The translations under genes and the position numbers were made by a program. From NCBI RefSeq assembly GCF_900100255.1, contig NZ_FMTS01000001.1, positions 496,001-560,000 of the forward strand: a DNA stretch of 64,000 nt, written 5' to 3'. The notes beneath the pieces were generated by a model. The model ran no database searches. It saw only the letters and a program-made list of their open reading frames with translations, and was not told the DNA's origin. Origin of the DNA: Asticcacaulis taihuensis. GTDB lineage: Bacteria > Pseudomonadota > Alphaproteobacteria > Caulobacterales > Caulobacteraceae. Of this stretch, positions 1 through 51,123 are shown piece after piece. The number at the start of each line of letters is the position of its first letter. The stretch's first letter is position 1.

Positions 1-22
1 TTGATCCTGGTGATCAGGGAGT

Positions 23-156
23 TAGAAAACCGGTCTTACTCGGTCCCTATGGCCTTTAGCCGGAGCCTATTGCATACGCCATAGGCTCCCCGACCGAAGG
101 TCAAGGAGGGTGTACCGGAGTGGCCGGCAACAACCAGTAAGACTAGGGGTTTTCTA
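23..156. ncRNA. Candidate structured RNA upstream of a four-gene cluster
   Basis: The sequence can fold into a branched structure. Bases 23-31 pair with 148-156 (9 bp) and 33-40 with 136-143 (8 bp), giving a 17-bp closing stem with one asymmetric internal loop. Bases 41-45 pair with 92-96, and inside that 62-70 pair perfectly with 81-89 around a ten-base loop. A further CCGG/CCGG hairpin lies at 115-118/124-127. No ORF of note covers it. I do not recognise it as tmRNA, SRP RNA, RNase P RNA, a tRNA or a known riboswitch. It could be an RNA belonging to the downstream cluster, a terminator region of a gene to the left, or an element end. Strand and expression are unknown. Confidence 0.35.
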
Positions 157-418
157 CGACCCCAGGCCCGCGCGTACGGACCCGGATCGACTATAGCGTG
201 AGCCGGTTTGCAGAGCTAGTCAAAATGACAGAGCATCTTTGGCCGCGGATAAGCGTAATTCTGTAATAACTTGATTGAACGAGCTGGGAGGTGGAAGTAT
301 TCTAAAAATTGCCGATTCTCTCCGCAGCCGCCAATCGTCGGTTGTAGAACTTTTCTCAGGTGTTGCGGGCAAAGCCTTCATACAGTTGTTCCGTTAAGAA
401 AGCCGTCAAGTACCGCAA
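157..418. other. Non-coding leader before the four-gene cluster
   Basis: No convincing ORF is present. A weak inverted pair (GACTA near 189 and TAGTC near 217) follows the structured element. I could not identify a clear promoter or Shine-Dalgarno sequence for the ATG at 419. The composition turns AT-rich from about 220 onward, matching the genes that follow. Confidence 0.4.
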
Positions 419-1315
419 ATGTCACGTGCTCTTATTAACGACCGGATTGATCATTTTCGCGATTTTGGAATTTGGCCTCGGGTTCAAGAGTTGAACGCTG
501 AACAATGGCTAGGAAATTTCGCAGAACACGAATTGTTCATTGCAGAAAGACTACTTTCCCACTTTACCTATTTTAACCGTACAATGACTGATGCTTTACT
601 GAAGCAAGCAATCCAAAACTTTTTGACTAGCAAATGGCTGGTTGCCGATTTTGGTCAGCCGCCCTCATCAGCTGATTTGTCTTCGGTTCGATTTGTAGTT
701 AGCGAGGGCGAAGATCCAAATGCGACTGACAGTGGAAATTTATTCGCACGGAAGTTACGTGACATAATTCGCATCCCTGAAGTCTACATACGGACGCCCG
801 AGAAGGCATTAAGGGAAGCTTCTGCCGCTAAGCACTTCGTGTTCGTCGACGATTTTGTGGGCAGCGGCAATCAATTCATTGCGACTATCGAAAGGCAATA
901 TTCAAATACTGGAAAATATTCATCTTTCGAACAGCTGCTTGCGACGCCGGGCTATTCGATTTCCTATTGCCCATGCGTAGCCACAGCATATGCGCAGCAT
1001 CAACGAATTGCGGTCCGCTTCCCAACGATTAATTTATTCCCAGCACACCTGCTAACATCAAGTCACAACTGTACACTACCAAGCTCACGAGTGTGGCACG
1101 GAATGTCCTCCGGCGACTTGACGACTGCATTGTCGTCTTTGAGAGCCATTTCTCTCCGTGCAGGTTTTTCAGAGGATGATGGTGGCCAAGACTCGTGGCA
1201 CGGCTTCCATAGATTGGGCCTCTCCCTTGCTTTTGATCATGGGATTCCTGACGCAAGCCTCCCAATCTTTTTCTCCGAACGAAACGGCTGGAAGCCATTA
1301 ATAGGGAGAGCATAA
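419..1315 (+). CDS. PRTase-like protein (PRTase-CE type), first gene of a four-gene conflict-type cluster
   Basis: A 298-residue protein. Residues 141-152 (VFVDDFVGSGNQ) match the PRPP-loop-like signature of phosphoribosyltransferase folds, with beta strand, DD, then a glycine/serine loop. A segment around residues 93-108 (VVSEGEDPNATDSGN) precedes it. The helical N-terminus has no motif I know. From memory, this family (PRTase-CE) was named in computational surveys of prokaryotic conflict systems next to ORC/CDC6-like ATPases, which is the arrangement here. Its stop shares one base with the next start (TAATG), so translation is coupled. The gene is much more AT-rich than the mutasome genes downstream, suggesting transfer. 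Biochemical activity is unknown. Confidence 0.75.
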   Translation: MSRALINDRIDHFRDFGIWPRVQELNAEQWLGNFAEHELFIAERLLSHFTYFNRTMTDALLKQAIQNFLTSKWLVADFGQPPSSADLSSVRFVVSEGEDPNATDSGNLFARKLRDIIRIPEVYIRTPEKALREASAAKHFVFVDDFVGSGNQFIATIERQYSNTGKYSSFEQLLATPGYSISYCPCVATAYAQHQRIAVRFPTINLFPAHLLTSSHNCTLPSSRVWHGMSSGDLTTALSSLRAISLRAGFSEDDGGQDSWHGFHRLGLSLAFDHGIPDASLPIFFSERNGWKPLIGRA

Positions 1316-3177
1316 TGCCGACCGACTCCAACATCGCCGAAAAGCTAGAGCAATTGTTTGGGAGCTTCAGAGCAGAATCGTTACGGGATGATCTCTACCC
1401 ATTATTCAATGAGCCTGAATACTTTTATTATCTGATAGCGCCCAAGTCATGCCTACTTGAAGGCGGGCGTGGATCTGGAAAGACAACCGCGTTGCGCTGC
1501 ATGACTTACGAGGGACAAGCAGCACTTACCAGCAACGACTTTTCGGAACCGAAATTTGTTGGCCTATACACGAAAATTAATACGAATACGGTAGCCTCTT
1601 TTTCTGGTCCTGAGTTAAATATAACTTCATGGCAAAGGTTCTTCGGCCATTTCATCAATTTGATGATATGTGAAGAAGCGTTGATTTATATCAAGTGGCT
1701 TAAAGATTACCGTAAAAGTAATCACCTAGATGCGAAGATGAATTATACGCGCGTGGGCCAGGCTCTTGGATTCGCAAACGTTACAACTCTAAACGACTTA
1801 TTCAACGCAATAGACCACTCCAGAATGAGTCTGGAGATATATATTAACAATTTCGGCGATTCAAAGCCAACAATTTCGCCCCTTCAAACGCCCGTCAATA
1901 TACTTATGGAAGAGATGCGGGAACTAGATGGGCACAAAGACACTAACTTCTTCATAATACTTGATGAATACGAAAACTTTCTAGATTACCAGCAAAAAAT
2001 TGTTAACACCCTTATTAAGCATTCAGGAGAAAATTACTTTTTCAAAATTGGCGTTCGTGAACTTGGCTGGCGAGAGAAGACGACTCTTAATTCGTCAGAA
2101 GTGCTTATTAGCCCCGCAGATTACGAACGGATCCAAATTGAGGAAAAGTTGGAGAACGATTTTGCGGCTTTCGCAAAACGGGTGTGTGATGCACGGCTGC
2201 GGAAGGCAGACACGGCACTTTTCGGCCCAGCAATTGACGTAGAAACGCTTTTACCAGGCCTTTCAATTAAGGCGGAAGCAATTGAGCTCGGCGTAAGCCG
2301 GCACGTCGAGACCTTTCGATCATTTTTGCTGTCGACGGCAGACACTCATCGACTTCTGGACCTGCACGATCACGAACTTTACGTGTTCCAAGAATTGAAC
2401 AAGCAAAACCTACCAGAGGCGACTAAGGAAATAGAAGATTATTATCTCGGAAAAAAGAGCAGTAGGGAGCGATATGAGAACTATGCTTACTCACTACTAT
2501 TTTCAATTTCCGGAAAAGGTGCCAAAATTTCTAAATATTACTGCGGCCACTCTGTTCTAGCAAAGACAACGCATCAAAATATTAGATTTTACATGCAGCT
2601 TGTAAACGAATGCATTCGAGAGCAGTTTGCTGTGGGCAAAAGTATTTCCGAGCCTATCGATGCGCAACTTCAAACGGTAGCGGCACGTAATGTGGGATTG
2701 AGCTACTTGCGGGAACTGGAAGGTGTGTCGGTTCAGGGCGGGTCATTGGCAAAACTACTTTTGGGTCTGGGACGCCTTTTCCAAGTCATGGCCGCGAATC
2801 CAGTAGGTGGCAAGCCAGAATGCAACCAGTTTGAAATGTCGGAAGAAGTTTCCGATGTCGATAGTCAGACAAACCAAGAAGTCAGATCTCTGCTTATTGA
2901 AGCAGTTATGCATTTAGCACTTGTACGGACACCGGGAACGAAACTTACGACAGCGAGCGACGTCCGTTCTTGGGACTACGCACCTCATCCCATATTCGCA
3001 GCATATTTTGGCTTCAGCCATCGCCGCAAGCGCAAGATGAAGGTTGAAGAATCAGATTTGATTGCCCTTACAAAACAACCTCAAGAGACAATCAAAAAGT
3101 TGCTCGGACGTCGAGCACCTCTTGCCGACGAAGCACTTCCTATTCAGATGAGCATGTTTGATGAGTACTTTTGCTGA
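1315..3177 (+). CDS. ORC/CDC6-like P-loop ATPase
   Basis: A 620-residue protein with Walker A at residues 50-58 (GGRGSGKTT) and Walker B at about 214-220 (IILDEYE), giving a compact N-terminal AAA-type core. A long, mostly helical C-terminal half has no motif I recognise. The pattern resembles the ORC-CDC6 family AAA ATPases found in bacterial conflict systems rather than a replication initiator, and no origin-like repeats are nearby. It overlaps the upstream PRTase-like gene by one base and the downstream gene by 17 bases. In such systems the ATPase is usually the sensor or switch that controls an effector; that role is inference here. Confidence 0.75.
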   Translation: MPTDSNIAEKLEQLFGSFRAESLRDDLYPLFNEPEYFYYLIAPKSCLLEGGRGSGKTTALRCMTYEGQAALTSNDFSEPKFVGLYTKINTNTVASFSGPELNITSWQRFFGHFINLMICEEALIYIKWLKDYRKSNHLDAKMNYTRVGQALGFANVTTLNDLFNAIDHSRMSLEIYINNFGDSKPTISPLQTPVNILMEEMRELDGHKDTNFFIILDEYENFLDYQQKIVNTLIKHSGENYFFKIGVRELGWREKTTLNSSEVLISPADYERIQIEEKLENDFAAFAKRVCDARLRKADTALFGPAIDVETLLPGLSIKAEAIELGVSRHVETFRSFLLSTADTHRLLDLHDHELYVFQELNKQNLPEATKEIEDYYLGKKSSRERYENYAYSLLFSISGKGAKISKYYCGHSVLAKTTHQNIRFYMQLVNECIREQFAVGKSISEPIDAQLQTVAARNVGLSYLRELEGVSVQGGSLAKLLLGLGRLFQVMAANPVGGKPECNQFEMSEEVSDVDSQTNQEVRSLLIEAVMHLALVRTPGTKLTTASDVRSWDYAPHPIFAAYFGFSHRRKRKMKVEESDLIALTKQPQETIKKLLGRRAPLADEALPIQMSMFDEYFC

Positions 3178-4111
3178 TATCGGCCTGAGAGCGCCACCAC
3201 ATGCGATATACGAGACGCGTGACAGGGTAGCTTTCGCCCCTGATTCTGTTTTGATTTTCGGTCATTTTGAGACTCGGAGTCATTTGCCGGAAAGCTGGGT
3301 GTCCCAGTTGTCTCAACAAAGAATCTTTCAAGTCGCGGAAGGAAGTGATTTTGGCCAAATTCGAATCGAAGGTGAAATTGATGAGGATTTGTCCCTGCGG
3401 GAGAACTCCAAGTTTAGAGGTTGGCTGAATAACTTGCCGGCCACAACAGTATATCTGGATATCACGGGGCTTGGGCATCACTTGTGGATGCCGATCTTGC
3501 GAATGCTGCTCGAAGGCGGAAAAGTAGTTCAGTGCCTTTACACAGAACCCGGTGAATATACTTACAGTTCAAATCCTAGACCAGGCGACTTCTATGATCT
3601 CAGCGAAAAGATGCGCGGGTTCAGACCGATTCCTACTTTCGCTCGTATTCCCTCAAGGGGGCGTCCGGCAGGCCTTTTGATACCGCTCCTCGGTTTTGAA
3701 GGCGTCCGTTTCAAGCATTTAGTTGAAGTTATTGAGCCGAACGATAAGGACATTTATCCCATCATAGGGGTACCTGGGTTCGAAATTGACTATCCATTTC
3801 ATACCTTTGAGGGCAATGCAGATCCGTTGCGATCGACTAGGGCGTGGCAGAGAGTTGACTATGTCGACGCCTCCTGCCCCTTCTCGCTATTCAGCCTAAT
3901 TGAGCGCATGCGTCAGGACCATCCAGGGCGGGCGATTCAAGTTGCAACTATTGGGACTAAACCCCATGCCCTCGGGGCCATGCTTTATGCAATGAGGGAC
4001 GATACATGCGAAATTCTATATGATCACCCGGTTCGTAAACAGGGCCGCACGCACGGTAGCGGGAAATGTCACGTGTATGATATTTCGACATTTTGGCGTA
4101 CTGGTCATTGA
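3161..4111 (+). CDS. Uncharacterised Rossmann-like protein, third gene of the conflict-type cluster
   Basis: A 316-residue protein of no family I can name. The ATG at 3161 lies inside the end of the ATPase gene; an in-frame TTG sits directly before it. Two segments look like strand-loop-helix units of a Rossmann fold: residues 97-117 begin YLDITG and continue into a hydrophobic helix, and residues 259-276 read QVATIGTKPHALGAMLYA. The DxTG and GTKP features recall the nucleotide-sensing loops of CARF-like domains, but the order and spacing are not canonical and this is only a suggestion. The C-terminus carries a basic, glycine-rich stretch (RKQGRTHGSGK). Its stop codon shares a base with the next start (TGATG). 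Confidence 0.6.
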   Translation: MSTFADIGLRAPPHAIYETRDRVAFAPDSVLIFGHFETRSHLPESWVSQLSQQRIFQVAEGSDFGQIRIEGEIDEDLSLRENSKFRGWLNNLPATTVYLDITGLGHHLWMPILRMLLEGGKVVQCLYTEPGEYTYSSNPRPGDFYDLSEKMRGFRPIPTFARIPSRGRPAGLLIPLLGFEGVRFKHLVEVIEPNDKDIYPIIGVPGFEIDYPFHTFEGNADPLRSTRAWQRVDYVDASCPFSLFSLIERMRQDHPGRAIQVATIGTKPHALGAMLYAMRDDTCEILYDHPVRKQGRTHGSGKCHVYDISTFWRTGH

Positions 4112-5205
4112 TGCAGGACATCCTTCACTACACTCCCGAAAAAACGGCTAAAGCTCTGATTGCCAAGTCTCGAATAGGCAATCCGCATTCCGTGGCAGAT
4201 TTTTGCGTTGGAGATGGCAGCCTCATTCGTGCCGCAGCTATTCGATGGCCTGAGGCGAGATTGTTCATCAATGATGTAGACACAGAAGCCTTAGCTCATG
4301 CCGCTATGAAAGTACCCAGCGCTTCACTGAGCTCGGTTGACTTTCTTAGTGAGCAACTGACTGAGCATTTGCACTCAAATAACTTTCAACGCTTCAGCAC
4401 CATTTTGCTCAATCCGCCTTTTGCTAACGTAGGTGCAAAACGTTGGCGGCCACGTGGTATTTTCAGTGATGTGCCATGTAGTCGCGCGATGGCCTTCCTG
4501 TTAACTGCTGTCGACCACATTGAACATGATGGTGAAGTTCTGGCAATTTTACCAGCTTCGACAATTCACAGTCATATCGATGAAACTGCTCGAAATGTCC
4601 TTGGACAGGTGGGCAAATTCCGCGTTTTAAGCAAGCCTGCTCTAGGCGTTTTCCCTAGAATAAGTGCGACGACCTACATGGTGCGAGTTTCCAAGGTCCG
4701 ACCCGAAAAGCGTAAAATGTCCGAGGAAACCGGTCTAAGTGCAGACTGCGCTCGGCTCGTGGAATGCATCGTCCGAGGAAATATCTCTACTAAGAAATCA
4801 GAGCGCGTAGTGACAGATGACACCGAAGGAATGGTGCATACAACATCTATCAAAAACGGAAAAATCGTAGAAATATATCAACTGCCTCAAACGATGGAGG
4901 CTAGAAGTTCGCGCAAAATTCTGGAAAATTACATTCTAATACCAAGGGTAGGGAAAATAGATCCCGGACATATTGTAATGAAATTGTGCAGTGCGCCTCT
5001 GCATCTTTCTGACTGTCTTTTCGCCATACGCTGCGATTCTCCCGATATGGTTTCGGAGATTCATGCAAGGCTTATAGATGATTTTACAAATTTGAAGGAA
5101 TTGTACAAGGGAACAGGTGCGCCTTATTTAACCAGAGATCACCTTGCTAAATACATGACTAAATTACTGTCCAAAAAGATAATTAAGCGCCTTTGTGGTA
5201 ATTGA
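4111..5205 (+). CDS. DNA methyltransferase-like protein (NPPF motif), fourth gene of the cluster
   Basis: A 364-residue protein, read from the ATG that overlaps the preceding stop as TGATG; an earlier in-frame TTG is less likely. Residues 30-38 (DFCVGDGSL) form a SAM-binding motif I, and 101-104 (NPPF) the catalytic motif IV of amino-type (usually N6-adenine) methyltransferases. Residues 144-150 (VLAILPA) fit the following strand. The C-terminal third resembles a target-recognition region but matches nothing I know. There is no restriction nuclease gene beside it, so it may modify DNA or RNA as part of the four-gene system, or act as a sensor or self-marking component. The gene ends 20 bases from the convergent dnaE2 stop. 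Confidence 0.7.
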   Translation: MQDILHYTPEKTAKALIAKSRIGNPHSVADFCVGDGSLIRAAAIRWPEARLFINDVDTEALAHAAMKVPSASLSSVDFLSEQLTEHLHSNNFQRFSTILLNPPFANVGAKRWRPRGIFSDVPCSRAMAFLLTAVDHIEHDGEVLAILPASTIHSHIDETARNVLGQVGKFRVLSKPALGVFPRISATTYMVRVSKVRPEKRKMSEETGLSADCARLVECIVRGNISTKKSERVVTDDTEGMVHTTSIKNGKIVEIYQLPQTMEARSSRKILENYILIPRVGKIDPGHIVMKLCSAPLHLSDCLFAIRCDSPDMVSEIHARLIDDFTNLKELYKGTGAPYLTRDHLAKYMTKLLSKKIIKRLCGN

Positions 5206-5224: not shown

Positions 5225-8200
5225 TTATTTAAAATCCCGGCTCCGGTGTTCGATCCGGGCCTGCATGGCGACCCGCGGATCGACACCCGGCCCGCCGTTT
5301 CGGAATTCATCGCCCGGCTGATGCGGCGGATGGAGCGGATTATCCCGGTCGCCGACCTCCGCCAACATATGTGACAGGTCGACGGCCGTGCGTGCGATCA
5401 CATGGACGACCTCCCCTTCCCGCTGCACATAGCCGGTGATCAGAACCAGGCTGGCGCCGTAAACGGCTTGTTTGTATGTCTCGCCCACCTGCTCCCAGAC
5501 AATGATATTGGCATTGGCCGTTTCGTCCTCGATCGTCATGAAGATCACGCCGTTGGCCGAGCCCGGTCGCTGACGGACATTCACCATGCCGGCAACAGAA
5601 ACGTAGCGCTTATCTTTCGAGGCCATTGCCTCCTGGCAGGTGACGAACCCTCTCGCCTGCAAATCCGCACGTAAAAACGCGACCGGATGAACCGTCTGGC
5701 TGAAGCCAACCGTGTTGTAGTCCTCGACGACATTGGCACCATCGGTCATGCGCTTCAGGGCCAGGTCGAGATTTTCATATTCAGAGACGCTTCGGCCATG
5801 TTGGTCGAGAACGCAGTCGAACAGAGGCAAGACATCGTCCCCCAGGGACTTGATGGCCAGGGTGGCATCCCGTCGAACGATCCCAAAGGACGTATCGAAA
5901 ACATTCGCCTTAGCCAGCTTGCGCAAGGTCGATGCCGGTGTTTTGGCACGGCGCCACAGGTCGGGAATAGATTTGTAGGGTGCCTCGCCACGCCGGAAAA
6001 CCAGGTCGGCAACATCCTGGCTACGTATGCCCTTGATCAGCCGAAACCCTAATCGAACGGCAAACTTGCCGGGTCGTTTGCTGGGCTCCAAAGTACAGTC
6101 CCATCGGCTGTTGTTGGCGCAGAACCAGCGGATTTCCACGCCGTGGGCTTTGGCGTCGCGGATCAGTTGTGCCGGTGCGTAGAAGCCCATAGGCTGGCTG
6201 TTCAGGATTGCTGCCAGGAACACATCCGGGTGGTGGCATTTCATCCAGCATGAGGCTTCCGCGATAATAGCGAACGAGAAGGCGTGCGATTCGGGAAAGC
6301 CATAGCTGCCAAAGCCTTCCAACTGCTTGACCAATTGATTGGCGTATTCTTCGGTATAGCCGTTTTTCAACATGCCATCGATGATCGCCTGGCTGACTTC
6401 GCCCAGCCCGCCGGTCTTCTTAAAGGTGGCTTGCGCGCGCCGGACCTGGTCGGCTTGCCCTGCGGTAAAGCCAGCGCACACAGAGACCAGCCGCATCGCT
6501 TGTTCCTGAAATAGCGGAACGCCTTTCGTCTTCGCGAGAATGCCTTCCACTTCTGGCGTCGGATAGGTGACCTCCTCTTCGCCTTTCAGACGTCGAAGAT
6601 AGGGATGGACCATATCCCCTTGGATGGGGCCTGGCCTGACGATGGCGACCTGAATCACGATCTGATAAAAGGTGCGGGGCTGGGTCTGTGGCAGCATACT
6701 GATCTGCGCGCGGCTCTCGATCTGAAAGGTGCCGATGGTGTCGGCCCGGCGGATCATCGCGTAGGTCTTTGGGTCTTCTGGCGGGATGGAGGCCAGGTCC
6801 ATATGGATGCCCTTATGCTCGGCCAGGAGATCGAACCCGCGCTTCAAAGCGGTCATCATGCCCAGGGCCAGACAGTCCATTTTCATGAACTTGAGGACAT
6901 CGATATCGTCCTTGTCCCACTCGATCACCTGCCGTCCTGCCATCCGGGCCGGTTCGATCGGCACCAGTTCGTCCAGGCGATCGTTCGTCAAGACGAAGCC
7001 GCCGGGGTGCTGAGACAGCTGGCGCGGAACGTCGAGCAGCAGGAGGTGTATTTCGAACGCCTGTTTCAGGCGGCGATCATTGATGTTGAGACCGAGTTCC
7101 GCCGCCATTTCCGGCGTACAGCCTTCCGAATGCCAATATCGAATATTCTTGGCCAGAACCTTGATGGTGTCCTCCGGAAAGCCGAGGACACGCAAGGCGT
7201 CACGCATAGCGCCCCGCGTGCGGAAGCGCGAGACCACGGCTGTCACCGCGGCATGGTCGCGGCCATACGTCTCCCATATCCATTCATAAACCTGCTCACG
7301 ACGCTGGTGCTCAAAGTCTACGTCGATGTCGGGCGGCTCTTTCCGTTCCAGAGAAATGAAGCGCTCAAATAGCAGGTCATTGCGTGACGGATCGACCGAG
7401 GTGATGCCCAGGACATAGCAGACGCAGGAATTGGCGGCCGAACCTCTGCCCTGGTGGAGGATGTCACGAGACTGGGCAAATTTCACGATCGAATTCACGG
7501 TCAGGAAGTACTTGGCGTAGTCGAGCTGGTCGATCAGGTCGAGCTCATGCTTCAGCAGATCGATGACCGACTGCGGCACGCCTTCGGGATAGCGCCACCT
7601 CGCGCCGGCCCAACAGAACCGCTTCAAGGCTTCCAGTGCCGACACGCCGGGCAAAAGCCGCTCTTCCGGGTATTGATATTCCAGCTCCGACAAGGAAAAC
7701 CGGCACTTGTCAGCGATTTCCTCCGTCCGCCGCAGGGCCTCTCGGTAATCCGAAAACAGCCGGTGCATTTCCTCGGGGGACTTCAGGAACCGGTCAGCAT
7801 ATTTGTAACGGAGATCGCCCATTGTATCGATGGTGCACCGGTTCTTGATGCAGGTAATGACATCGTGCAGGAAGGCGCGGTCATGAGCGGAATAGAGGAC
7901 GTCGTTGGTGACTACGGTCGGGACGCGCTGCTTTACAGCCAGATTCGACAGGGTATGCAGACGCATATGGTCGTTCTGCCGGTAACGAAGGGACAACGCC
8001 ATGTACGCATGCTCGCCAAACAGGGCTTTCACTTTCCGAAGGCGCAAGGCGCACAGGTCGTCCGGCTCATCCGGTATAAAAACCGCCAGCAGCCCTTCAT
8101 GAAAATCCTCGACATCCGACCAGTCGAGATCGCACTTCCCCTTCCCCGCCCGCATCTTGCCTAGGGACAAAAGCCGGCACAGATTGCCATAGCCGGTCCG

Positions 8201-8443
8201 GTCCATCGGGTAGACCAGTAGGATCAGGCCATCGCGCAAGACGAGACGGCAGCCGATGATCAGGCGAACACCCGTTTCTTGGGCGGCCACATGGGCGCGC
8301 ACGATGCCGGCAAGGGTATTGGTGTCGGTAACGGCCAGGGTGTCCATGCCCAGTGTCTTTGCGCGGTCGAACAAAGCGTCCGGCGCCGACACCGCCTGAA
8401 GAAACGAAAAATACGAGGCGCATTGCAGTTCGACGTAGGCCAT
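5225..8443 (-). CDS. dnaE2: Error-prone DNA polymerase DnaE2 (ImuC)
   Basis: A 1072-residue C-family polymerase that performs translesion synthesis with ImuA and ImuB in the SOS response. The PHP domain at residues 1-65 has lost the metal-binding histidine expected near its start (YFSFLQAVSA), typical of DnaE2. The palm carries QGRGSAANSC (331-340) and the catalytic PDIDVD (371-376). The C-terminus has helix-hairpin-helix and OB-fold regions. The start is the ATG that overlaps the imuB stop (TGATG); longer upstream readings run within imuB in another frame and are not credible. It is the last gene of imuA-imuB-dnaE2 and should be expressed from the LexA-controlled imuA promoter. Confidence 0.97.
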   Translation of the reverse strand: MAYVELQCASYFSFLQAVSAPDALFDRAKTLGMDTLAVTDTNTLAGIVRAHVAAQETGVRLIIGCRLVLRDGLILLVYPMDRTGYGNLCRLLSLGKMRAGKGKCDLDWSDVEDFHEGLLAVFIPDEPDDLCALRLRKVKALFGEHAYMALSLRYRQNDHMRLHTLSNLAVKQRVPTVVTNDVLYSAHDRAFLHDVITCIKNRCTIDTMGDLRYKYADRFLKSPEEMHRLFSDYREALRRTEEIADKCRFSLSELEYQYPEERLLPGVSALEALKRFCWAGARWRYPEGVPQSVIDLLKHELDLIDQLDYAKYFLTVNSIVKFAQSRDILHQGRGSAANSCVCYVLGITSVDPSRNDLLFERFISLERKEPPDIDVDFEHQRREQVYEWIWETYGRDHAAVTAVVSRFRTRGAMRDALRVLGFPEDTIKVLAKNIRYWHSEGCTPEMAAELGLNINDRRLKQAFEIHLLLLDVPRQLSQHPGGFVLTNDRLDELVPIEPARMAGRQVIEWDKDDIDVLKFMKMDCLALGMMTALKRGFDLLAEHKGIHMDLASIPPEDPKTYAMIRRADTIGTFQIESRAQISMLPQTQPRTFYQIVIQVAIVRPGPIQGDMVHPYLRRLKGEEEVTYPTPEVEGILAKTKGVPLFQEQAMRLVSVCAGFTAGQADQVRRAQATFKKTGGLGEVSQAIIDGMLKNGYTEEYANQLVKQLEGFGSYGFPESHAFSFAIIAEASCWMKCHHPDVFLAAILNSQPMGFYAPAQLIRDAKAHGVEIRWFCANNSRWDCTLEPSKRPGKFAVRLGFRLIKGIRSQDVADLVFRRGEAPYKSIPDLWRRAKTPASTLRKLAKANVFDTSFGIVRRDATLAIKSLGDDVLPLFDCVLDQHGRSVSEYENLDLALKRMTDGANVVEDYNTVGFSQTVHPVAFLRADLQARGFVTCQEAMASKDKRYVSVAGMVNVRQRPGSANGVIFMTIEDETANANIIVWEQVGETYKQAVYGASLVLITGYVQREGEVVHVIARTAVDLSHMLAEVGDRDNPLHPPHQPGDEFRNGGPGVDPRVAMQARIEHRSRDFK

Positions 8444-9966
8444 CACTCGAACTTTCCGTGCAAATACCACTTCAGGCCGCCCGTATCCGCATGCTGGCCA
8501 TCGCCCGTCCGGAAGGCCCAAAAGCGTTCGCCGCCATCCACTTCCAGGATGAAGTAGTCGCGCACCTTTCCTTTTTCCCGATCGGCGATCCACCACTCGC
8601 CATGCACCCGCTCCGGCCCGTCCGCACAGGCTACGGCGTAACGCTGCCCACGCCAAGTAAAGGCTTTCGGCGGGTGGTCCGGCATGACCGCTAAGGCCAT
8701 GATCTCTTCAGGCTTGCGGTACAGGCGCTGTGGCCGGCGATAGATCGCGTTACGTTCGGACCCAACCTCTTCCGATGTCGGGGAGACGCGGCGGACGGCG
8801 CGTTCGGGAATATCCGTGGCGACGGATATGGCGCGATACAGGCAGTCGCTGCCGTGGCGATTGGCCAGGACGTCCCACAGGTCTTCGACATCCGGACGTG
8901 CCGGCGTCTCAAACGACGCCAAGGTTTGTTTCATCACCAGCGGTTCGGTGAAGGCGGCAGTCATGACCATTTTCTCCACGCCCCACCCCGGATCGACGGT
9001 TTCGATCTTGTCGACCAGCAGCTTGGCCAGACGCCGGGCATCGCGAACCGGCTTGGCCGTGCTCACGAAAATCGTCTCAATCCGGTTATCGGTGCGGGTG
9101 AAGTGCAGGTCGAGCCGGCGGCTGCCGAGACCGGCCTCCTCCAGCCGCAGGCACATCCGGTCAGTCAGGCGCCGGGTGTATTTCTCAATGGTCTCCGGCG
9201 CGCCGATCGGTTCGGCGAAAATGCGCTCGATGCGGATGAGTTCCGGCGCTTCGACCGGTTCGATGGGTTCATTCAACCGCCCGAACGCCTGATCGATGCG
9301 GCGGAAGAGCTTGGGCCCAAAGGTCTTGGTGAGCAGCGGACGCGGTTTGCCAGCAAGTTCACCGATCGTGTCCAGGCCCAACAGCCGCAGGTCCGGCAGC
9401 ATGTCGGGCGGCAGGCGCAAGGCTTCGACCGGCAAGCGCCGTAGCGCGTCACCGGTTTTGTCACGCTCAACGATCTGCATCGGCTGCCGGCCAAAGCGTG
9501 CCAGTGCGTGGGCGGCGCCCCAGGTATCGGCCAGCGCTGCGACACAAGAGATGTTGAAGTCAGCCAGCCGCCGGCGGGCGTCCTCGATCAGGCCCGCCTC
9601 TCCCCCAAAGAGATGGGCGGCGCCCTGAATATCGAGGACCAGCCCGTCGGGCGGATCGGCGGCGACGAGCGGTGAGTAGTGCCTTAGGCCCCACACCGCC
9701 AGCTTTTCCAGGGCGTCAGCGTCGGCGGTCCTATCGCCATCGAGAATGACGAGGTCCGTAAACAGGGCTTCAGCCTTCGCTACAGGCATGCCGATATAGA
9801 CGCCCATCTGCCTGGCGAGATCGTCAGCGCCGGAGACGACGCGGCGGCGACCGTCGGATCCTTTCAGGACAAGCGGCACCTCACGAGACGGCGCGGATGA
9901 ACCCATCGCCCGCCTCAGTCGATCCGTCGGCCAATTGGGAAGGAATAGAGATAAGACCCTGGCCAT
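8443..9966 (-). CDS. imuB: ImuB, Y-family polymerase-like mutasome hub
   Basis: A 507-residue protein starting MARVLSLFLPNWPTDRLRR, the usual ImuB N-terminus. It has the Y-family palm and finger layout but lacks the catalytic acidic residues. In known systems it is a non-catalytic adaptor linking ImuA, DnaE2 and the beta clamp. A helix-hairpin-helix-like region occurs near residues 195-215 (LGLDTIGELAGKPRPLL). I did not find a clear clamp-binding motif. The start overlaps the end of imuA by 86 bases and the stop overlaps the dnaE2 start, so all three are probably co-translated. Confidence 0.96.
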   Translation of the reverse strand: MARVLSLFLPNWPTDRLRRAMGSSAPSREVPLVLKGSDGRRRVVSGADDLARQMGVYIGMPVAKAEALFTDLVILDGDRTADADALEKLAVWGLRHYSPLVAADPPDGLVLDIQGAAHLFGGEAGLIEDARRRLADFNISCVAALADTWGAAHALARFGRQPMQIVERDKTGDALRRLPVEALRLPPDMLPDLRLLGLDTIGELAGKPRPLLTKTFGPKLFRRIDQAFGRLNEPIEPVEAPELIRIERIFAEPIGAPETIEKYTRRLTDRMCLRLEEAGLGSRRLDLHFTRTDNRIETIFVSTAKPVRDARRLAKLLVDKIETVDPGWGVEKMVMTAAFTEPLVMKQTLASFETPARPDVEDLWDVLANRHGSDCLYRAISVATDIPERAVRRVSPTSEEVGSERNAIYRRPQRLYRKPEEIMALAVMPDHPPKAFTWRGQRYAVACADGPERVHGEWWIADREKGKVRDYFILEVDGGERFWAFRTGDGQHADTGGLKWYLHGKFE

Positions 9967-10932: not shown

Positions 10933-12456
10933 ATGCGCGTCCCCATCGTCTTCATGTTTAACAGCTTTGCTTCTGGCGTCCCCGACTGGTACGGCGGGCA
11001 TTTCGACGCTGCTTTTCTTCAGGCCCTTTCATCTGTGGATCCCGTAGGTGAAAGCCACACTGCCGTCTACCGTGGTGACGCTCTGGTGAGCGACTTGGCT
11101 ACAAAGGTGACAGCAGTCCACGAAGTTCGTGGGGGTTACAGTTACACCCAATCTAGCGATCCGGACCTTTTGCGCACGATAGTTTGGGATTTTGCTGACG
11201 CTTTGGCTTGCCAAGCACACTCGGTCGATCAGGAAGACTTTCCAATCATTTTTGGCATGGGCGGGGCGCATTGCATCTTTCTACCGACATTTACACGAGA
11301 TTTTGCTGTTGCGATGGACAAGATACTCCGCGCCACCGCCGGGTACCTAGGGTATGTTGAGATCGATTTAGCCAACCCCTTGCAGCGAAAGCTTTACGTC
11401 GACTTCCTCATCAAAGATGCCGCAATCGTCGGTGGCCAAGTTATTACGGAACTAAGTTCAGAGGGAGAGGACGTGATCTTCTTTTCCCAGGCGACCGCAT
11501 TCAAGCCTAACGGGTCTCGCGTCGTACCATATGGGGATCTGCGCAACTTTCAACCGGCGTTGAAAATTCCAACCGAGCTATCTGCCCGTGGCAAACTGAC
11601 ACTTGATCGGTATGAAGGCAAAAAAACATTCAGTTTGCAGGAAAAAGTTCTGGCAGCACTAGCACGGTCGCAGCAATATTCGTCGACGAAGTCTTCGTTC
11701 TCGATTGGTCTCACTCCAGGCGCCGAAATTCCGCTTGAAGCCATCCTACCTGAAAACAAATTCAAAAAGTACTTGTTAGACAGCGAGAGCGACGACGGCG
11801 CATCTAAAGCAAAATTTTTCCGTGAACAGTTGGATATTGGCCCAAACGATTGGCGATATTTGGCCGCACAATTCCATGACGGTTTGCTCAAATCTGACCT
11901 TGTCCAGGTACACGTCAAGAAATGGGAAACAGGCTCTGGTGTCAAGTTTAATGCCACTATGCCGATTGTCGGACGGAATGGGAAAACCGTTTACGTGGAG
12001 ACAAACTGGATTATGAAGCCGGGCAATTTGCCCAGTTTCTCTACAGCATTTCCTGGCAAACGGCCGGACGCTCCTGTGCTTGGAACACCGCCGCCAGTGC
12101 TACCTGCCGAAGTTGTCGGCGACGCTAGGTGGGAAGGGATATTTGCGCTGGCTAGTGAGGCTGGTTGCATGGCCGCGACCTCCGCAGTGCCCACGCCGAT
12201 GGCTATTCGCGGATTTGGCATTGAAATGGAGGGCATGTGCGGTCATGCCGCGGTTAGAGTGTTTGATACGAAGGGCGGATTTGGTAAATGGGCTATGGAT
12301 ACTGGGCACGCCAGCCGCCACTACAAATCGGGTGCCCGTATAAGCGCTCGCGTTTCTAGCCAGTCCGTTGATCGAGCGATTGCCTACGCGACCGCCTTCG
12401 CGACTGTGCTATCGCATAACGGGATCGGTTGCGTTGTGGAAACCCGGTTGACGTGA
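10933..12456 (+). CDS. DUF6883-containing protein of unknown function
   Basis: A 507-residue cytoplasmic protein with no signal peptide or membrane segment. Residues about 270-375 match the DUF6883 pattern as I know it: a KFKKYLLDS-like start, KAKFF near 292-296, NDWRYLAAQF near 305-314 and a V-x-V/E-T-x-W-I end (about 353-360). The first 260 residues contain a strand and glycine region (VDQEDFPIIFGMGGAHCIF) with no match I recall, and the last 110 residues are also unknown. DUF6883 is often the C-terminal domain of small proteins or toxin-immunity cassettes; here it is central in a large protein. No partner gene is adjacent. A GAGG sits nine bases before the ATG. Confidence 0.65.
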   Translation: MRVPIVFMFNSFASGVPDWYGGHFDAAFLQALSSVDPVGESHTAVYRGDALVSDLATKVTAVHEVRGGYSYTQSSDPDLLRTIVWDFADALACQAHSVDQEDFPIIFGMGGAHCIFLPTFTRDFAVAMDKILRATAGYLGYVEIDLANPLQRKLYVDFLIKDAAIVGGQVITELSSEGEDVIFFSQATAFKPNGSRVVPYGDLRNFQPALKIPTELSARGKLTLDRYEGKKTFSLQEKVLAALARSQQYSSTKSSFSIGLTPGAEIPLEAILPENKFKKYLLDSESDDGASKAKFFREQLDIGPNDWRYLAAQFHDGLLKSDLVQVHVKKWETGSGVKFNATMPIVGRNGKTVYVETNWIMKPGNLPSFSTAFPGKRPDAPVLGTPPPVLPAEVVGDARWEGIFALASEAGCMAATSAVPTPMAIRGFGIEMEGMCGHAAVRVFDTKGGFGKWAMDTGHASRHYKSGARISARVSSQSVDRAIAYATAFATVLSHNGIGCVVETRLT

Positions 12457-12577
12457 TCGGCAAATATCATTCGCAACTTCAGCGACTTGCGTGTCGGAAA
12501 GTAATTATAGCAGGCCGTCACATTCTCGCGCGCATGCGTCATTAACGATTTAAAGTCAAGCATAAATGTGAAAAAGC

Positions 12578-12606
12578 TTGACATTTTGTTAAAAAAGTGT
12601 TAATGT
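12578..12606 (+). promoter_or_regulatory. Predicted promoter with overlapping CtrA-type site
   Basis: TTGACA at 12578-12583 is followed after 16 bases by TTAATG at 12600-12605, a good -35/-10 pair. A full TTAA-N7-TTAA (12589-12603), the consensus for the Caulobacterales cell-cycle regulator CtrA, overlaps the spacer and -10. It would drive the membrane protein gene at 12742 with a leader of about 130 bases. Binding is inferred from sequence only. Confidence 0.55.
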
Positions 12607-12741
12607 GGGAGGTGGTTGTAATTCCGCGACCACATATACCGCCGGGTCACGAAGTATTCTAAACGCCTGATATTTCTAAAAATTTCAACGTTCTAAATTC
12701 AATCCAACCGACGGCCTTACTCATATTTTTGAAAGGTCAAA

Positions 12742-13497
12742 ATGACAAAAAACACCTACTCCTCACTTCTTCAAACCGCGTTTATGGAAACCCTTCCAGA
12801 AGCGCGCCTGCACTCGCTGTTGGCAATGCTGTGGGCATTGCTTGTACCGGCTATTGGCGGGGCCCTGACATGGTATTTGACAGGTAGTATCTCTTATACT
12901 GCTGTAACCGCTATTGTCGCAGTTCCGGTCATCTTCATCGCCGTTTTCCTTTGGAAGGCCATGATTGCGGTTCCGCATCGGACGATTACCGAGCAAGGCC
13001 AACAGATTAAGGCTTTGCTAGCGATCAAGGCTACCGAACCCCTTGCCGAACATGACATTCGTCTGTTTCGTCGCTTCAACAAAGTTTTCGGTGCGGCTGA
13101 AACACAGTTCCTGCGTGCTCATAACTTTTATATTCCGCTCCAGACATCGCATCTCGATCCGATCAATGACTTCGTAGCGGGATGGGATGGACCGACTTTT
13201 GAGTTCAGAGACCCTGTGCTCGATGCCAAGCTGGCGGCGTGCAAGGACGCCGCCCTGCATTTTTACGGAGAGACGGCACGTATGTTTACTTCCGCGAACC
13301 CCCATTTCCTGACAGTCCGCACGGACCTGGATCGCGGGGAAGAGTTGACTGAGCAGACACAAGCACATGTCCAACGCCTCACTACACGCGCGACCGAATT
13401 GCTTTTTGCTGCCGATGCCGTCACGAAAGAAGCTATCGCGCGCGGCCTCAGCCCCTTGCCCGCGGTACGCAGCCGGAGTCGCGCCACCACCGCATAA
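12742..13497 (+). CDS. Hypothetical inner-membrane protein with a cytoplasmic domain
   Basis: A 251-residue protein of unknown family. Two hydrophobic segments (about residues 26-47 and 51-72) form a membrane hairpin and are followed by a soluble domain rich in helices (about 90-240), ending in an arginine-rich tail (RSRSRATT). GAAAGGTC precedes the ATG. An upstream promoter with a CtrA-type site suggests cell-cycle control, and a strong terminator follows, so it is probably monocistronic. No enzymatic motif is visible. Confidence 0.6.
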   Translation: MTKNTYSSLLQTAFMETLPEARLHSLLAMLWALLVPAIGGALTWYLTGSISYTAVTAIVAVPVIFIAVFLWKAMIAVPHRTITEQGQQIKALLAIKATEPLAEHDIRLFRRFNKVFGAAETQFLRAHNFYIPLQTSHLDPINDFVAGWDGPTFEFRDPVLDAKLAACKDAALHFYGETARMFTSANPHFLTVRTDLDRGEELTEQTQAHVQRLTTRATELLFAADAVTKEAIARGLSPLPAVRSRSRATTA

Positions 13498-46988: not shown

Positions 46989-47019
46989 GCCTCCCGCACT
47001 AGCTGCGGGGGGCTTTTTA
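46989..47019 (+). terminator. Rho-independent terminator of sppA
   Basis: GCCTCCCGCA and TGCGGGGGGC pair around CTAGC, followed by TTTTTA. It stands 22 bases after the sppA stop. Confidence 0.9.
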
Positions 47020-47292
47020 TTTACGTCCGCCCATCTCCATGCAACCGCCTCCAGAAGGCTTGTCCGATCCAGCACCTTACATCACATCGCTCTTTCTTCT
47101 CGGCGGACATATGCAGGACAGGCGGATCTTTCCAAAACTTCTGGGAAAGAATTTTTCAGCCAACCATGCAGCGGCTGTTTCTTCCACATCGGCATATCTA
47201 TGCCCGCTATTTCCTGACTGTGACCGTTTGCTATTGGTCTACCCAGCAAACTATGCACCTATGCGGGACAAACGTTCCTCACACCATTTATG

Positions 47293-47325
47293 AAAAAAGC
47301 GGCGGAAGGTTTTCCTTCCGCCGCT
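47293..47325 (-). terminator. Rho-independent terminator of the TonB-dependent receptor gene
   Basis: On the minus strand GCGGCGGAAGG and CCTTCCGCCGC pair around AAAA, followed by six T residues. It lies about 25 bases after the receptor stop. Confidence 0.9.
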
Positions 47326-47350
47326 TCTTGTTTACCCGAAGGTCTCGATC

Positions 47351-50300
47351 TTAGTAGCTCAGATCGAAGCCTAGACGCACGTAACGCGGGGTGTTGTAGT
47401 AGGTCGTCTTGCCATAGTTGGAGCTGACAACACCAACGCCAGTCGTTTCGTAAGTCAGGCGACGTTGCAGAATCTGGTGGTTATCAAACACATTGAAGAT
47501 GTCCGCACGCAAGACCAGATTGCCACCAATGGCGTACTTTTCAGGCACGGTATAGCGGAACGACAGGTCGAGATTCTTGGTCCAATCGCTCTTCAAACCC
47601 TTGCCCTGGACAGCACCGACACCGCCACAATAGTGCGAGTACGGGCCGTAGGAACCAGCATAAGGATCGGTCGGATGATAACCCAGGCAAGAGAAGTGCG
47701 CCGGGGACTGAACAAGAACGTTAGCACCAATCATGAAGTTCGGCGTAAAGGCATACGAACCCCAAACCTTAAGGGTGTGCGTACGATCGTTCGGCAGCAG
47801 GCCGGTAGCGTAATCTTCGAAGCCCGGTGAGTCGAACGCGATGGTCGCGCCAGCATCGTCCTGCTGCGAGTTTCCGACTTCCGACTTAACCGTACCTTCG
47901 TAGTTCCCGTAGGAACGCGACCAGGTATACGACCCTTGCAGGCCCCATTTGCCATCGAAGGCACGCTTCCAGTCAAACACCAGGGCCTGATAGTTGCGTT
48001 TCGGGTCGTGGTAATGTCCCAACTGGTCCGCGGTCAGGGTGATTGTGCGGGTCTCAGTTTCACCAGCCAGCGGCTGCTTCAGGTTAATTGTGACGTCATG
48101 ATCACCAACGTTCCAGACATAGTAGGAATTGGAAATGGTGCCATCCGTATAGATCGAGCTATCAAGGCCATTGGCATCGAGATAGTCAATAATAGCCGTC
48201 TGGAAGTCAGAGTCTTCCGATATGCGCTTCAGGTCGCGGTTGATATAGCTCAAACCGAAGGTCCACATATCGTTGAAACGATAGGTGGTGCCTAGAATGA
48301 TTTCATCCTCTTCTGTGGCTTGCAGACCAATTGAGGTCTTGGAAGTCGCGCCTTCCTGTGAACCATTACCGTGAACGTTACAGGCCGCTGTGCCGACGAC
48401 ATAAGACGACAAGCCCGGCGCCGAATTGATCGAAGCACTGGCGGGTGTATCGGGACAAGGTGCGCTGAAACCGGTAGGAATATCTACTACAGGTGCGCCT
48501 ACAGATGTCGGCAGCCCCGTTGACGGGTCGATATCCCAACCGCCTGCCGGCTGGGCAAAGAGCGCTTCGAAATACAGATCCTTGCCGCGATAACCAAGAT
48601 TCATCGCGGGAGGAATAAAGTTAGATCCGTAAGATCCATAGACCTTCCAGTTACCGTCAGTATCCGGCGTCCAGGAGAAACCGAGACGCGGGCCAATATT
48701 GCCGGTCAGATTGAGATAGCGTTGCCCGGAAAGATTGTTCTGGGTAAAATCGTCATTCCGAACGCCGACCTGAACGTTGAAAGTCGGAGTGATATCCCAC
48801 GAATCCTGAATATACCAAGCACTATTCTCTGCGCTGACATTACCGCCAAGGAATTCGTAAATAACATGAAGCACTGAATTTGGATCAGTGGAACCAACAG
48901 CAGGCGCACCAGCGGTTCCATAAACACTGGAATCCGGGTTGGTCTCGTAGCTGTAGCTGACGGGTTGGGTACCGACGAGGGTCGATATCTTTTCCATCGT
49001 GTTCTCTTCGTGGTCATAACCGAAGCGAACATGGTGACGGCCAGCCAGTTCAAAACGCATATCACCGTCAAAGCGATAGAACTTACGTTCAACATTATCA
49101 ACCGAAACACTGAGGCTTGGCTGGGCAGAAGATATCGTTTCCGAGCCTCCCGTGTAGATGCCATCCGTACCATAATAGCTTGCTACGTTATAGTCGGTCA
49201 GATTGCCCGGCAGGAAATTATCCGCATCCTTGGTGTCGCCATAGGCTGCCGAAATCGTAAACCAGTCAGTAAGTTGACCATTATAGTTCAGGACGTAGCT
49301 TTCACCACCCAAGGTCTCAACCGTACGGTCCGTTTGATTGCCGACAGTCTCACCGTCGAAATCATAAACATCGCCAATTTCTTCGCGCGAAGTGTCAAAA
49401 TAGGTCAGCGACAGACGTTGGGTAGGTGTGAAATAGGCGTCGAGCTTGGCGCCAAGGAAAGGATCCTGGTTCTTAAGACGGGTGAAAGCGCCCGTACGGA
49501 AATTGCCCGTTTCACGAACATTATCGTTCATCTGGTACAGGCCGTACGCGAACAGGTGATCCTTGATCAGAGGACCGCCCATTTCGACCGACAGGGAGTT
49601 TTCCTGCGTCTTGTCAAACTTGCCAGTGTAGGAATAGGTGTCGAGTTGGTCGGCTCCCAAATCCTTGGGTGCATAGTTCCCATGGATGGCGAACATGAAT
49701 TCGTTCGTACCGGACTTGGTCGTGGCATTGACAACGCCACCTGTCGCGCGGCCAAATTCAGCAGCGTAACCGCCGGTCTTAACTTCGATGGTTTTGTAGA
49801 AGTCAAACGGCACCTGGTTTCCACCGACATAGGTATCGGGGTTGGTGATATTAAGACCGTCGATGTAATACGCGTTTTCAGCGACCGAACCGCCACCAAA
49901 CGACGAGGACTTTTCGAAACCGCCATTACCGGTCTGACCACGGGTAACCGTCGGGGCCAGCAAAGTAACGGCGTTCAGGTTACGGGCGATCGGCTGTTGC
50001 GAAACCAGGGTATCCAGATCAACGGTTAGACCGGTCGTTGTCTTGGTAAAGTCCTGGCGAACGCGCTTGCCCTTGACCACGACGGTTTGCGTCGCACCGG
50101 TCGAATTCAGTGCAATGTCATAACGCACTTCCTGCGAAATAACGATCGTTGCCGTACCGGTGGCGTCATCATAACCGTTGGCTGAAACCGTATATGTATA
50201 TTCACCAGGCAACAGACCAATGGCCGAAAACTGACCTGACGCATTCGTGGTGAGTGTGCGAGACTGACCTTGTGCCGACGAAGTCAGAGTAACCGTAGCG

Positions 50301-50494: not shown

Positions 50495-51123
50495 TTGTTT
50501 CTCCGGGTTACATGAGGGTGTAGGCGCACCCACCGCAGTTTCCAGCATTACACGCTGTTAATGAAGTTAAAGACCCGTGTCGCAAATCCGTCAATCGCGC
50601 GACATATTTTTGTCGATATCAATTGCAACCTGTTTCAATAAAGTCACAGCCGAAACATTACCCTAGGGAAACTACAACCAACACTTTCTGGTTAATTTAA
50701 CCGGCACGTATCCAGACAATTTTCGTGAATGATTTTTTCAAATTATAATAAAATTCAAATTATTATTAAGGACTTATAATGCGCCTCCTCATCCAAACGG
50801 ATGCAAATAAATTCCCCTGAATAGTTACGTTATCCCGAAAATCATTTCAGACGATTTTGCGTTGCCCGCATTGCTAAAATGGCAAAATATCAGAACAGAT
50901 GCAGATTCGACGCATCGTTTTTAACGTCTTACATGGACATATGTCGCCGATGTAACCGTTTCCGGCGGGTAACTGGCGGCCAGAACATGTGCCAAAAGAA
51001 GACTGAGCAGCGCGGCGGCAATCCGCTGCGAACGTTTTGATAAATATATAAAAAATGTCGAACCCATGGCTAACCCGTCCTGATCTTCTCAAGACGGAAG
51101 CAAACCGCAAGCCAGCCGCCAGA
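50495..51123. other. Long AT-rich region upstream of the TonB-dependent receptor
   Basis: No gene longer than 13 codons is supported. The stretch 50690-50780 is strongly AT-rich and probably holds the receptor promoter. A seven-base inverted repeat (ATTTTGC/GCAAAAT) occurs near 50856-50890. No LexA or full CtrA site was seen. Confidence 0.4.

Follow-up and report, generated by a model that had tools for sequence, protein, structure and literature searches.

We found that four overlapping genes at positions 419-5205 of the window, the whole 64,000-nucleotide stretch of Asticcacaulis taihuensis DNA analysed here, form one unit that is probably a mobile, modification-gated immune system; in our reading, the marking and effector modules are exchangeable in this kind of defence. 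All four genes lie on the forward (+) strand, are complete and contain no internal stops, and they overlap in gene order by 1 base (TAATG), 17 bases and 1 base (TGATG), exactly as the first-pass annotation had described. These overlaps suggest that the four proteins are produced jointly. The cassette has a GC content of 46.4% (0.464) versus 57.8% (0.578) for window positions 6001-64000, the lowest-GC stretch of equal length starting beyond it reaches 0.522, and GC ranges from 55 to 64% over the 14 kb preceding the window. The genes downstream are of the mutasome type, with DnaE-type polymerase domains and an IMS/ImuB-like domain, and the third-position GC of the cassette genes (0.42-0.49) is well below the 0.706 of the adjoining dnaE2-like frame (5225-8656), so that both the mutasome neighbours and the AT-richness relative to them, claimed earlier, were borne out. 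The five neighbours scanned were an HTH-sigma protein, a FecR, a TonB receptor, the DnaE-type polymerase and the ImuB-like protein. A structured leader was rejected as part of the cassette, since the RNA element at window positions 1-182 is a genus-wide repeat that also occurs without the cassette.

The first gene (419-1315, 298 aa) encodes a PRTase-CE protein, the predicted effector. It matched PF24390 over profile positions 2-253 of 253 at 151.6 bits (E 4.9e-44; gathering score 27), confirming the resemblance noted at first pass, and the PADLOC model PRTase_III-A at 64 bits. Its translation contains FVFVDDFVGSGNQ (residues 140-152, positions 836-874), conserved in the alignment, which we take to be a motif of the PRPP-binding type. 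Residues D144, D145 and G150 were invariant in 83 of 83 alignment rows and Q152 was present in 99%, and the acidic pair of PRPP-binding type (D144 D145) is thus intact in the window protein. A profile search of the PDB with PRTase-CE gave PyrR as its best match, at a nonsignificant E of 0.1. The second gene (1315-3177, 620 aa) encodes an ORC/CDC6-like AAA+ ATPase. The likeness proposed for it also held: it matched PF24389 at 401.3 bits (cut-off 27), structural comparison recovered the Cdc6/Orc fold, and both nucleotide-binding motifs are intact. Walker A (GGRGSGKT, residues 50-57, positions 1462-1485) has seven of its eight residues invariant in a 41-row alignment, in which D217 and E218 of Walker B (FIILDE, residues 213-218, positions 1951-1968) are invariant as well.

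The third gene (3161-4111, 316 aa from ATG) had been called Rossmann-like. The Rossmann fold was recovered structurally, and the identity can now be sharpened to a tandem CARF protein of the CARF6 family: there was no Pfam match, PADLOC CARF6 matched at 354.1 bits, and the nearest structures, by VIA-align, were the CARF-fold proteins Csm6, Can2 and Card1. The best-matching part of the model, given by the aligned range of the top structural rows, is a second CARF unit (residues 168-297, positions 3662-4051); by sequence, the CARF profile found in the PDB only an unrelated protein (best E 0.095). Considering these nearest structures, the protein might be a classical CARF accessory responding to a nucleotide synthesised elsewhere in the cell, either cyclic oligoadenylate or one of the CBASS type; indeed, 10 of the 41 cassette genomes had a Cas10 palm match above cut-off, and 7 of the 41 had a CD-NTase (SMODS) match. 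However, just two of the ten Cas10 matches were convincing (E 5.6e-28 and 2.2e-10), and most of the others were partial-domain and, as we read them, GGDEF-like. In the A. taihuensis genome, the only Cas10 palm match was partial and, at 24.5 bits, fell below cut-off, SMODS was not matched at E 1e-5, and the cassette itself carries no synthase. We therefore regard the accessory explanation as improbable. That the protein usually serves as a type III CRISPR accessory was rejected, with a convincing Cas10 palm in just 2 of the 41 cassette genomes. CARF6 is reportedly among the families of the classification of Makarova et al. (2020); gene 3 shares that family assignment, whereas the cassette has no type III CRISPR gene.

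The fourth gene (4111-5205, 364 aa from ATG) matched PF05175 (MTS) at 30.8 bits, and the profile of its family matched EcoR124I HsdM (3.1e-19), BseCI (1.4e-14) and TaqI (1.2e-9) over approximately profile positions 3-208. Judging from its motif I, its NPPF motif IV (residues 101-104, positions 4411-4422; N, P and P in 99% of 94 rows) and these known relatives, its product is a predicted TaqI/HsdM-like gamma-type N6-adenine DNA methyltransferase, the putative self-marking module. None of the four proteins exceeded any family cut-off in NCBIfam, and none matched a nuclease family, such as might supply the cognate endonuclease of a type II restriction-modification system, although a diverged nuclease could escape such profiles.

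The four genes travel together. Among 79 genome loci gathered through the CARF protein, where co-occurrence is conditional on CARF, PRTase-CE, ORC and CARF stood in the window order on one strand in 74, and a methyltransferase lay within 3.5 kb in 77. Scatter would be expected had the proposed co-occurrence been wrong. A lone orphan methyltransferase was rejected on the same count. Over all 85 loci the methyltransferase was present in 83; one locus (L024) has the trio with no methyltransferase in view. Moreover, the distance matrices of the four proteins were correlated across 76 loci (Spearman 0.78-0.87), and for each pair none of 999 Mantel permutations gave a value as high, so the four have been inherited together.

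Among 16 fetched loci with an ORC match, a methyltransferase was in the cluster in nine, 3 kb away in one (L198), and absent from six (L150, L152, L153, L155, L201 and L203), of which L150 has a contig that ends 346 bases on and L152, L153 and L155 are of a SIS-like type. The CARF profile found no third gene in L150, L152, L153 or L154. In more distant ORC loci, PRTase can give way to HD-CE (L149, L151) or to a phosphoesterase of the calcineurin-like kind (L150, L197, L198), and the methyltransferases are of the C5 (L149, L151, L154), D12 (L197) or N6/N4 (L196, L199, L200, L202) class. PRTase-CE and ORC also occur with other partners, and the constant element is an ORC core, usually accompanied by CARF, around which marking module and effector alike are swapped. 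In one methyltransferase-free locus (L075), the trio is followed directly by SspB, SspC, SspD and SspA (321, 1164, 384 and 403 bits). Because phosphorothioation genes and other methyltransferase classes replace the methyltransferase in relatives, we interpret it as a DNA-marking module in preference to an effector, a correction to the first-pass interpretation. An HNH_4-domain gene (36 bits) lies directly upstream of the trio in L075, which gives the Ssp genes there another possible partner besides the trio. In the window, none of the four proteins matched an Ssp family, and methylation rather than phosphorothioation is the rule in 83 of the 85 loci, unlike in SspABCD-SspE/Dnd systems.

The same locus can be read in the opposite sense. 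SspE, the usual partner of SspBCDA, is stimulated by phosphorothioation. The modification might then be a trigger and not a shield, with the trio answering marked DNA in a type IV-like or SspE-like manner and the modification genes serving otherwise, for example by calibrating or provoking the response. The position of the trio beside SspBCDA fits this, as do the eight of 79 genome loci in which the methyltransferase is convergent, not co-oriented. Nevertheless, self-marking accounts more easily than recognition of a single mark for the several marking chemistries found beside related ORC clusters, and we consider the trigger model unlikely.

The distribution of the cassette points to mobility. 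It was found patchily, in its own genome and in 1 of 40 relatives; the flanks of the congener copy differ from those of the window copy. In two congeners, type I RM genes or an AriA-like ATPase lie close to the border that the cassette adjoins in the window. Integrase-like frames cluster within 5 kb in 16 loci (by reading). The CARF protein occurred in 146 plasmid records, 131 of them predicted conjugative, and the ORC protein in 150, with 135 predicted conjugative, in both cases mostly from Klebsiella. The functions of the four genes are predicted only, which would suit a housekeeping or regulatory operon with no conflict role; yet the patchy presence, the foreign base composition, the plasmid carriage, the integrase-like frames and the other cargo at the congener border leave such an operon hardly credible. 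An addiction or plasmid-competition module deserves somewhat more weight. In that case, loss of the methyltransferase would expose host DNA as in RM addiction, and the cassette would chiefly maintain mobile elements, in line with the conjugative plasmids and with pKPHS2, where the quartet lies close to repA. On the other hand, the window copy sits on a 1.47-Mb contig and three relatives (L024, L051 and L058) on contigs of 3-7 Mb, and we judge addiction as the chief role to be rather unlikely; addiction and defence are not exclusive. The suggestion of an anti-plasmid role lost ground, because relatives ride on conjugative plasmids. As a general anti-phage or anti-plasmid candidate, the cassette was strengthened by the co-occurrence and by the RM or AriA-like cargo at the congener border, while its anti-plasmid role and its newness came out weaker.

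The newness is reduced since PRTase-CE, ORC-CDC6-like and CARF6 are families already named. ORC-CDC6-like, PRTase-CE and HD-CE are the consecutive Pfam families PF24389-PF24391, all matched among these loci, as in systems with nucleotide-targeting effectors. Nicastro et al. (2023) reportedly named the effectors PRTase-CE, HD-CE and Calcineurin-CE and predicted nucleotide degradation, and that survey may cover part of the arrangement. Our literature searches for PRTase-CE, CARF6 and the quartet returned no description of the quartet, which is weak evidence since both Nicastro 2023 and Makarova 2020 lay outside their coverage. BREX and MADS differ in that the window cassette has four genes only, and among its proteins there was no match to the PglZ, BrxC or PglX families and nothing else that strongly matched a mad model. 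The PADLOC name PRTase_III-A, which presumably means retron type III-A, places the effector in the same family as that of these retrons, but no reverse transcriptase lies beside the window cassette, and ORC, CARF and the methyltransferase fill the other places. Retron identity was rejected after the neighbours were scanned and the other frames were read, while, by reading, 7 of the 16 PRTase-CE loci fetched have a reverse-transcriptase-like frame next to PRTase-CE (RVT_1 was checked in L160). In the excerpted text of one retron study, PRTases are probable retron effectors whose mode of action is given as unknown, and a DprA-PRTase pair protects against T7 and lambda (PMC9122126); in an excerpt of another, Retron-Bpu1, of a type usually with PRTase, gave no defence in the panel tested (PMC12548924).

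We infer a defence role, self-protection by the mark, an order of events, a ligand and a substrate as follows. The methyltransferase would put a mark on host DNA, and the ORC/CDC6-like ATPase would engage DNA and sense the absence of this mark. The tandem CARF protein may then bind a nucleotide ligand and thereby license or tune the response, after which PRTase-CE would destroy or divert nucleotides and so arrest replication of both invader and host.

The neighbours of the relatives hint at which nucleotides these could be. In 20 of 85 loci the cassette is adjoined by genes for ThyX, a UDG, a dCTP-deaminase-like protein or dUTPases, the last with two different folds, and no such genes were found elsewhere in the flanks. 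Enzymes of this kind help to exclude uracil from DNA, and as neighbours they hint that pyrimidine deoxynucleotides (dUTP/dTTP) may be involved. Reading of the frames next to the window cassette revealed no dUTPase, ThyX or UDG, and the pyrimidine link comes entirely from the relatives; it was not met in the literature searched. Tentatively, and as a possibility we would not yet expect to hold as a whole, PRTase-CE may attack or rewire pyrimidine deoxynucleotides (dUTP up or dTTP down), hosts may repeatedly recruit dUTPase, ThyX, dCTP-deaminase-like proteins or UDG to limit the damage, and the ligand read by the tandem CARF protein may be a thymidine- or uridine-type nucleotide, not cyclic oligoadenylate. 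More broadly, ORC and CARF might be a general immune core to which DNA-marking chemistries and nucleotide-destroying effectors of any kind can be attached. In its excerpted description, Clover likewise has an effector that attacks nucleotides under the control of nucleotide cues (dTTP, p3diT), comparable with the dUTP/dTMP enzymes beside cassette relatives, but it consists of a dGTPase (CloA) and a nucleotidyltransferase (CloB), unlike the cassette (PMC12265719).

The cassette bears on the action of PRTase effectors, which the excerpted retron literature describes as unknown (PMC9122126). A trio that is accompanied by methylation in some loci and by phosphorothioation in another would offer a clean route to the question of how a system with no evident nuclease tells self and non-self apart, and CARF proteins in genomes without Cas10 would gain a role.

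The four genes of the cassette, encoding PRTase-CE (419-1315), an ORC/CDC6-like AAA+ ATPase (ORC, 1315-3177), a tandem CARF protein (3161-4111) and an N6-adenine DNA methyltransferase (MTase, 4111-5205), are all intact frames. The first-pass annotation had described them as overlapping end to start, AT-rich and adjacent to mutasome genes, and we found the same: the overlaps are 1, 17 and 1 bases, the GC content is 0.464 versus 0.578 in window 6001-64000 (minimum among equal-length stretches starting beyond the cassette, 0.522), and a DnaE-type polymerase gene followed by a gene for an ImuB-like protein lies downstream. Upstream, past the window edge, are an HTH-ECF-sigma protein, FecR and a TonB receptor. 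Two more AT-richer stretches (11001-13000 and 47001-51000, GC 0.49-0.53) occur in the window. In the window's own genome (3.97 Mb, 19 contigs) the ORC protein is present in a single copy (search at E 0.001), and its nearest row in the ORC tree is from an Asticcacaulis MAG (L012, 72% identity).

The proposed co-occurrence of the four genes was supported in loci selected through the CARF protein, on which all of the following figures are therefore conditional. Scanning genomes with a CARF alignment and retaining the top 80 of 84 relatives gave 79 genome loci, and the trio of PRTase-CE, ORC and CARF genes was ordered on one strand in 74 of them. Among the five others, the CARF gene of L032, L056 and L074 lies no more than ~710 bases from a contig end, while L035 and L053, with a short CARF gene and an MTase, look like remnants. 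An MTase was found within 3.5 kb in 77 of the 79 (67 downstream and co-oriented, 8 downstream on the opposite strand, 2 upstream); none was found at that distance in L024 and L075. Adding five plasmid loci and one from a viral collection gave 80/85 for the trio and 83/85 for the MTase. The ORC tree rows with an assigned group span 11 phyla, judged by record titles. In the 76 complete loci, the distance matrices of the four proteins correlated (Spearman 0.78-0.87), and for each protein pair none of 999 Mantel permutations reached as high a value. In the Pseudomonas loci L081 (10708-11727), L083 and L085, an extra gene stands between CARF and a convergent MTase; that of L081 has a SIR2-like domain (PF13289, 44 bits).

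The converse search started from the other proteins. The ORC family exceeded the cut-off in 14/398 genomes of the window's own phylum and, at E 1e-8, in 10/395 genomes of the phylum of L068 (Dysgonomonas) and 4/396 of that of L034 (Micromonospora). We fetched 8, 6 and 2 of these, respectively (16 loci), excluding the window, genomes already among the loci, the near-twin G162 and matches limited to ~30-80 residues at Walker A. One of them, L148, is a quartet and by sequence belongs to the same genome as L011; L196 and L202 (the latter barely over the cut-off) combine PRTase, ORC and CARF with an N6/N4-type MTase. Elsewhere the effector differs. HD-CE accompanies ORC and CARF in L149, with a C5 MTase adjoining, and in L151, with a C5 MTase three genes off on the same strand. 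A calcineurin-like phosphoesterase accompanies ORC in L197 (D12 MTase adjoining), L198 (D12 MTase 3 kb off, opposite strand) and L150, where no MTase was found up to the contig end. In L199 (6560-10270) and L200 (7943-10504), an N6/N4 MTase adjoins an ORC with an extended N-terminal part; in L199 this extension is weakly kinase-like (Pkinase match below the Pfam cut-off). L154 has a long ORC frame next to a C5 MTase. L152, L153 and L155 lack an MTase and pair PRTase and ORC with SIS-, PfkB- or NADAR-like genes, possibly a subtype with a different chemistry; SIS and NADAR were assigned by reading frames, and PfkB by a PF00294 match in L163, which was found via PRTase-CE and is of the same type. 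No MTase was recognised in L201 and L203. The CARF profile matched a partner in L149, L151, L155, L196-L200 and L202 (E 2e-4 to 3e-24); it found no partner in L150, L152, L153, L154, L201 and L203. Altogether, an MTase was in the cluster in 9 of the 16 ORC loci and nearby in a tenth. PRTase-CE itself matched in 18/398 genomes of the own phylum, of which 16 loci were fetched (window and G312:C9 excluded). ORC accompanied it in 5 of the 16, a reverse-transcriptase-like frame adjoined it in 7 (by reading; RVT_1 confirmed in L160), and neither was found in four (L156, L157, L158, L161).

The marking module can also be of another kind. In L075 (Spirochaetia), the trio is directly followed by SspB, SspC, SspD and SspA (321, 1164, 384 and 403 bits), the phosphorothioation genes, with no MTase of the quartet's family. 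Because SspBCDA stands here and three further MTase types stand beside related ORC clusters, the evidence argues that the system needs some modification rather than the quartet's methyltransferase fold. An HNH_4-domain gene (36 bits) lies ~250 bases upstream of the L075 trio, with a 232-aa frame still further upstream; this HNH_4 gene could be a partner of the Ssp genes, which would count against a simple swap. Taken as a phosphorothioation locus, L075:1101-13127 has an unusual partner, with SspB-C-D-A beside a nucleotide-effector trio. We infer that the mark shields self. The main rival is that the mark triggers the trio instead of shielding from it.

Sources of a CARF ligand were surveyed in 41 genomes, the window's own and 40 of those that carry the 79 loci. 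Ten had a Cas10-palm match above the cut-off, which was convincing in two (E 5.6e-28 and 2.2e-10) and, by reading, partial and GGDEF-protein-like in most others; the own genome had a match below the cut-off only. CD-NTase (SMODS) was found in 7/41 genomes and not in the own genome.

The ORC gene is patchy: besides the own genome, one of 40 relatives has it. The congener copy (L169) shares ~65% nucleotide identity across the cassette and no flank. Homology of the window site with the genomes G022 and G024 passes the HTH-sigma gene into a structured RNA element and ends at window 210 and 112. Past the homology end these two genomes carry other cargo. In L176 (6237-9238), genes for a type I S subunit (268 bits) and a type I MTase (701 bits) lie ~2.6 kb on; in L177 (6095-9629), ~0.5 kb on and after an unassigned gene, there is an AAA ATPase that PADLOC matches best to AriA (69 bits, partial), with PtuA and others close behind. 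The DUF4435 look of this ATPase's partner was confirmed by neither PADLOC nor Pfam, and an SspH/mad8-like gene accompanies the ATPase. The HTH-sigma/RNA border is a possible defence hotspot. In the plasmid collection, the CARF protein occurred in 146 records and the ORC protein in 150, mostly Klebsiella. Klebsiella plasmid records with the CARF protein numbered 128, and pKPHS2 (L002, 4728-9804) has an MTase-first quartet ~1.3 kb from repA.

The RNA element (~190 nt) spans window about -32 to 182 (L168:13968-14182), with a second own copy at G000:C11:65569-65731. It occurs in 16/25 genomes of the genus in 1-4 copies each (copies L178-L195). Of the 15 copies retrieved together with their flanks, 9 were, by reading, divergent to an HTH-type gene no more than ~110 bases away, which was Pfam-checked in two copies and at the window. 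Across 19 sequences, 17/41 predicted pairs showed two-sided compensation, and the G-U pairs speak for the strand reading towards the cassette; the sole Rfam match, to sRNA-Xcc1 on the opposite strand, was below threshold. In two congeners (L206, L207) a copy adjoins imuA-imuB-dnaE2-like genes by reading; at the window, the element and the mutasome genes flank the cassette on opposite sides.

To look for uracil/thymidylate enzymes beside the relatives, we clustered the neighbours lying up to 5 kb away, ran Pfam on a selection of 46 neighbours and searched every frame of at least 80 aa in the fetched loci with profiles; the families were first spotted among neighbours, and the UDG and DCD profiles came from single seeds. 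Trimeric dUTPase was found in 8 loci (L010, L011, L013, L014, L018, L034, L044, L066), the unrelated dimeric dUTPase in 8 (L003, L023, L031, L033, L036, L038, L046, L048), ThyX in 3 (L014, L015 and L074, a 123-aa frame), a dCTP-deaminase-like protein in L021 and a UDG-superfamily protein in L008; the dUTPase calls in L033, L034 and L038 rest on custom profiles, not Pfam. These 21 genes in 20/85 loci each lie no more than ~320 bases from the cassette or touch its called ends, and the profile search found no further one elsewhere in the flanks of 86 loci (L087 duplicates the place of L012). Flank bases within 1 kb were 160,706/1,082,093, so the chance of such clustering would be ~0.1485^21 (4e-18) if places were independent and uniform, and they are not independent. 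A quickly built ORC tree with 81 rows requires at least 8 changes of the dUTPase state, and at least 11 of the state "any such gene". The trimeric enzyme is variable in position and strand; the dimeric one is directly upstream of PRTase in every case. The window cassette has no such gene beside it. These genes may shield the host against the effector, supply the effector with substrate or set a ligand level, and the association is open to testing.

In the literature, PRTases are described as probable retron effectors of unknown mode, and DprA-PRTase guards against T7 and lambda (PMC9122126); among type III-A retrons, Retron-Bpu1 gave no defence in the tested panel and Retron-Ppe1 was not transformable (PMC12548924). 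Other papers treat the Clover system (PMC12265719), ORC/CDC6 in conflict systems (PMC10853773, citing Nicastro 2023), ORC-Cdc6 in BREX (PMC12839542) and PRTase in a figure legend on validated systems (PMC13092281); keyword searches of PMC7159879 and PMC4012209 found nothing bearing on the cassette. The components are known, and their combination and modular exchange appear to be new, at least in part. The four-gene unit is real, conserved and mobile, and its most likely role is modification-gated defence, with a nucleotide-directed PRTase as the weapon.
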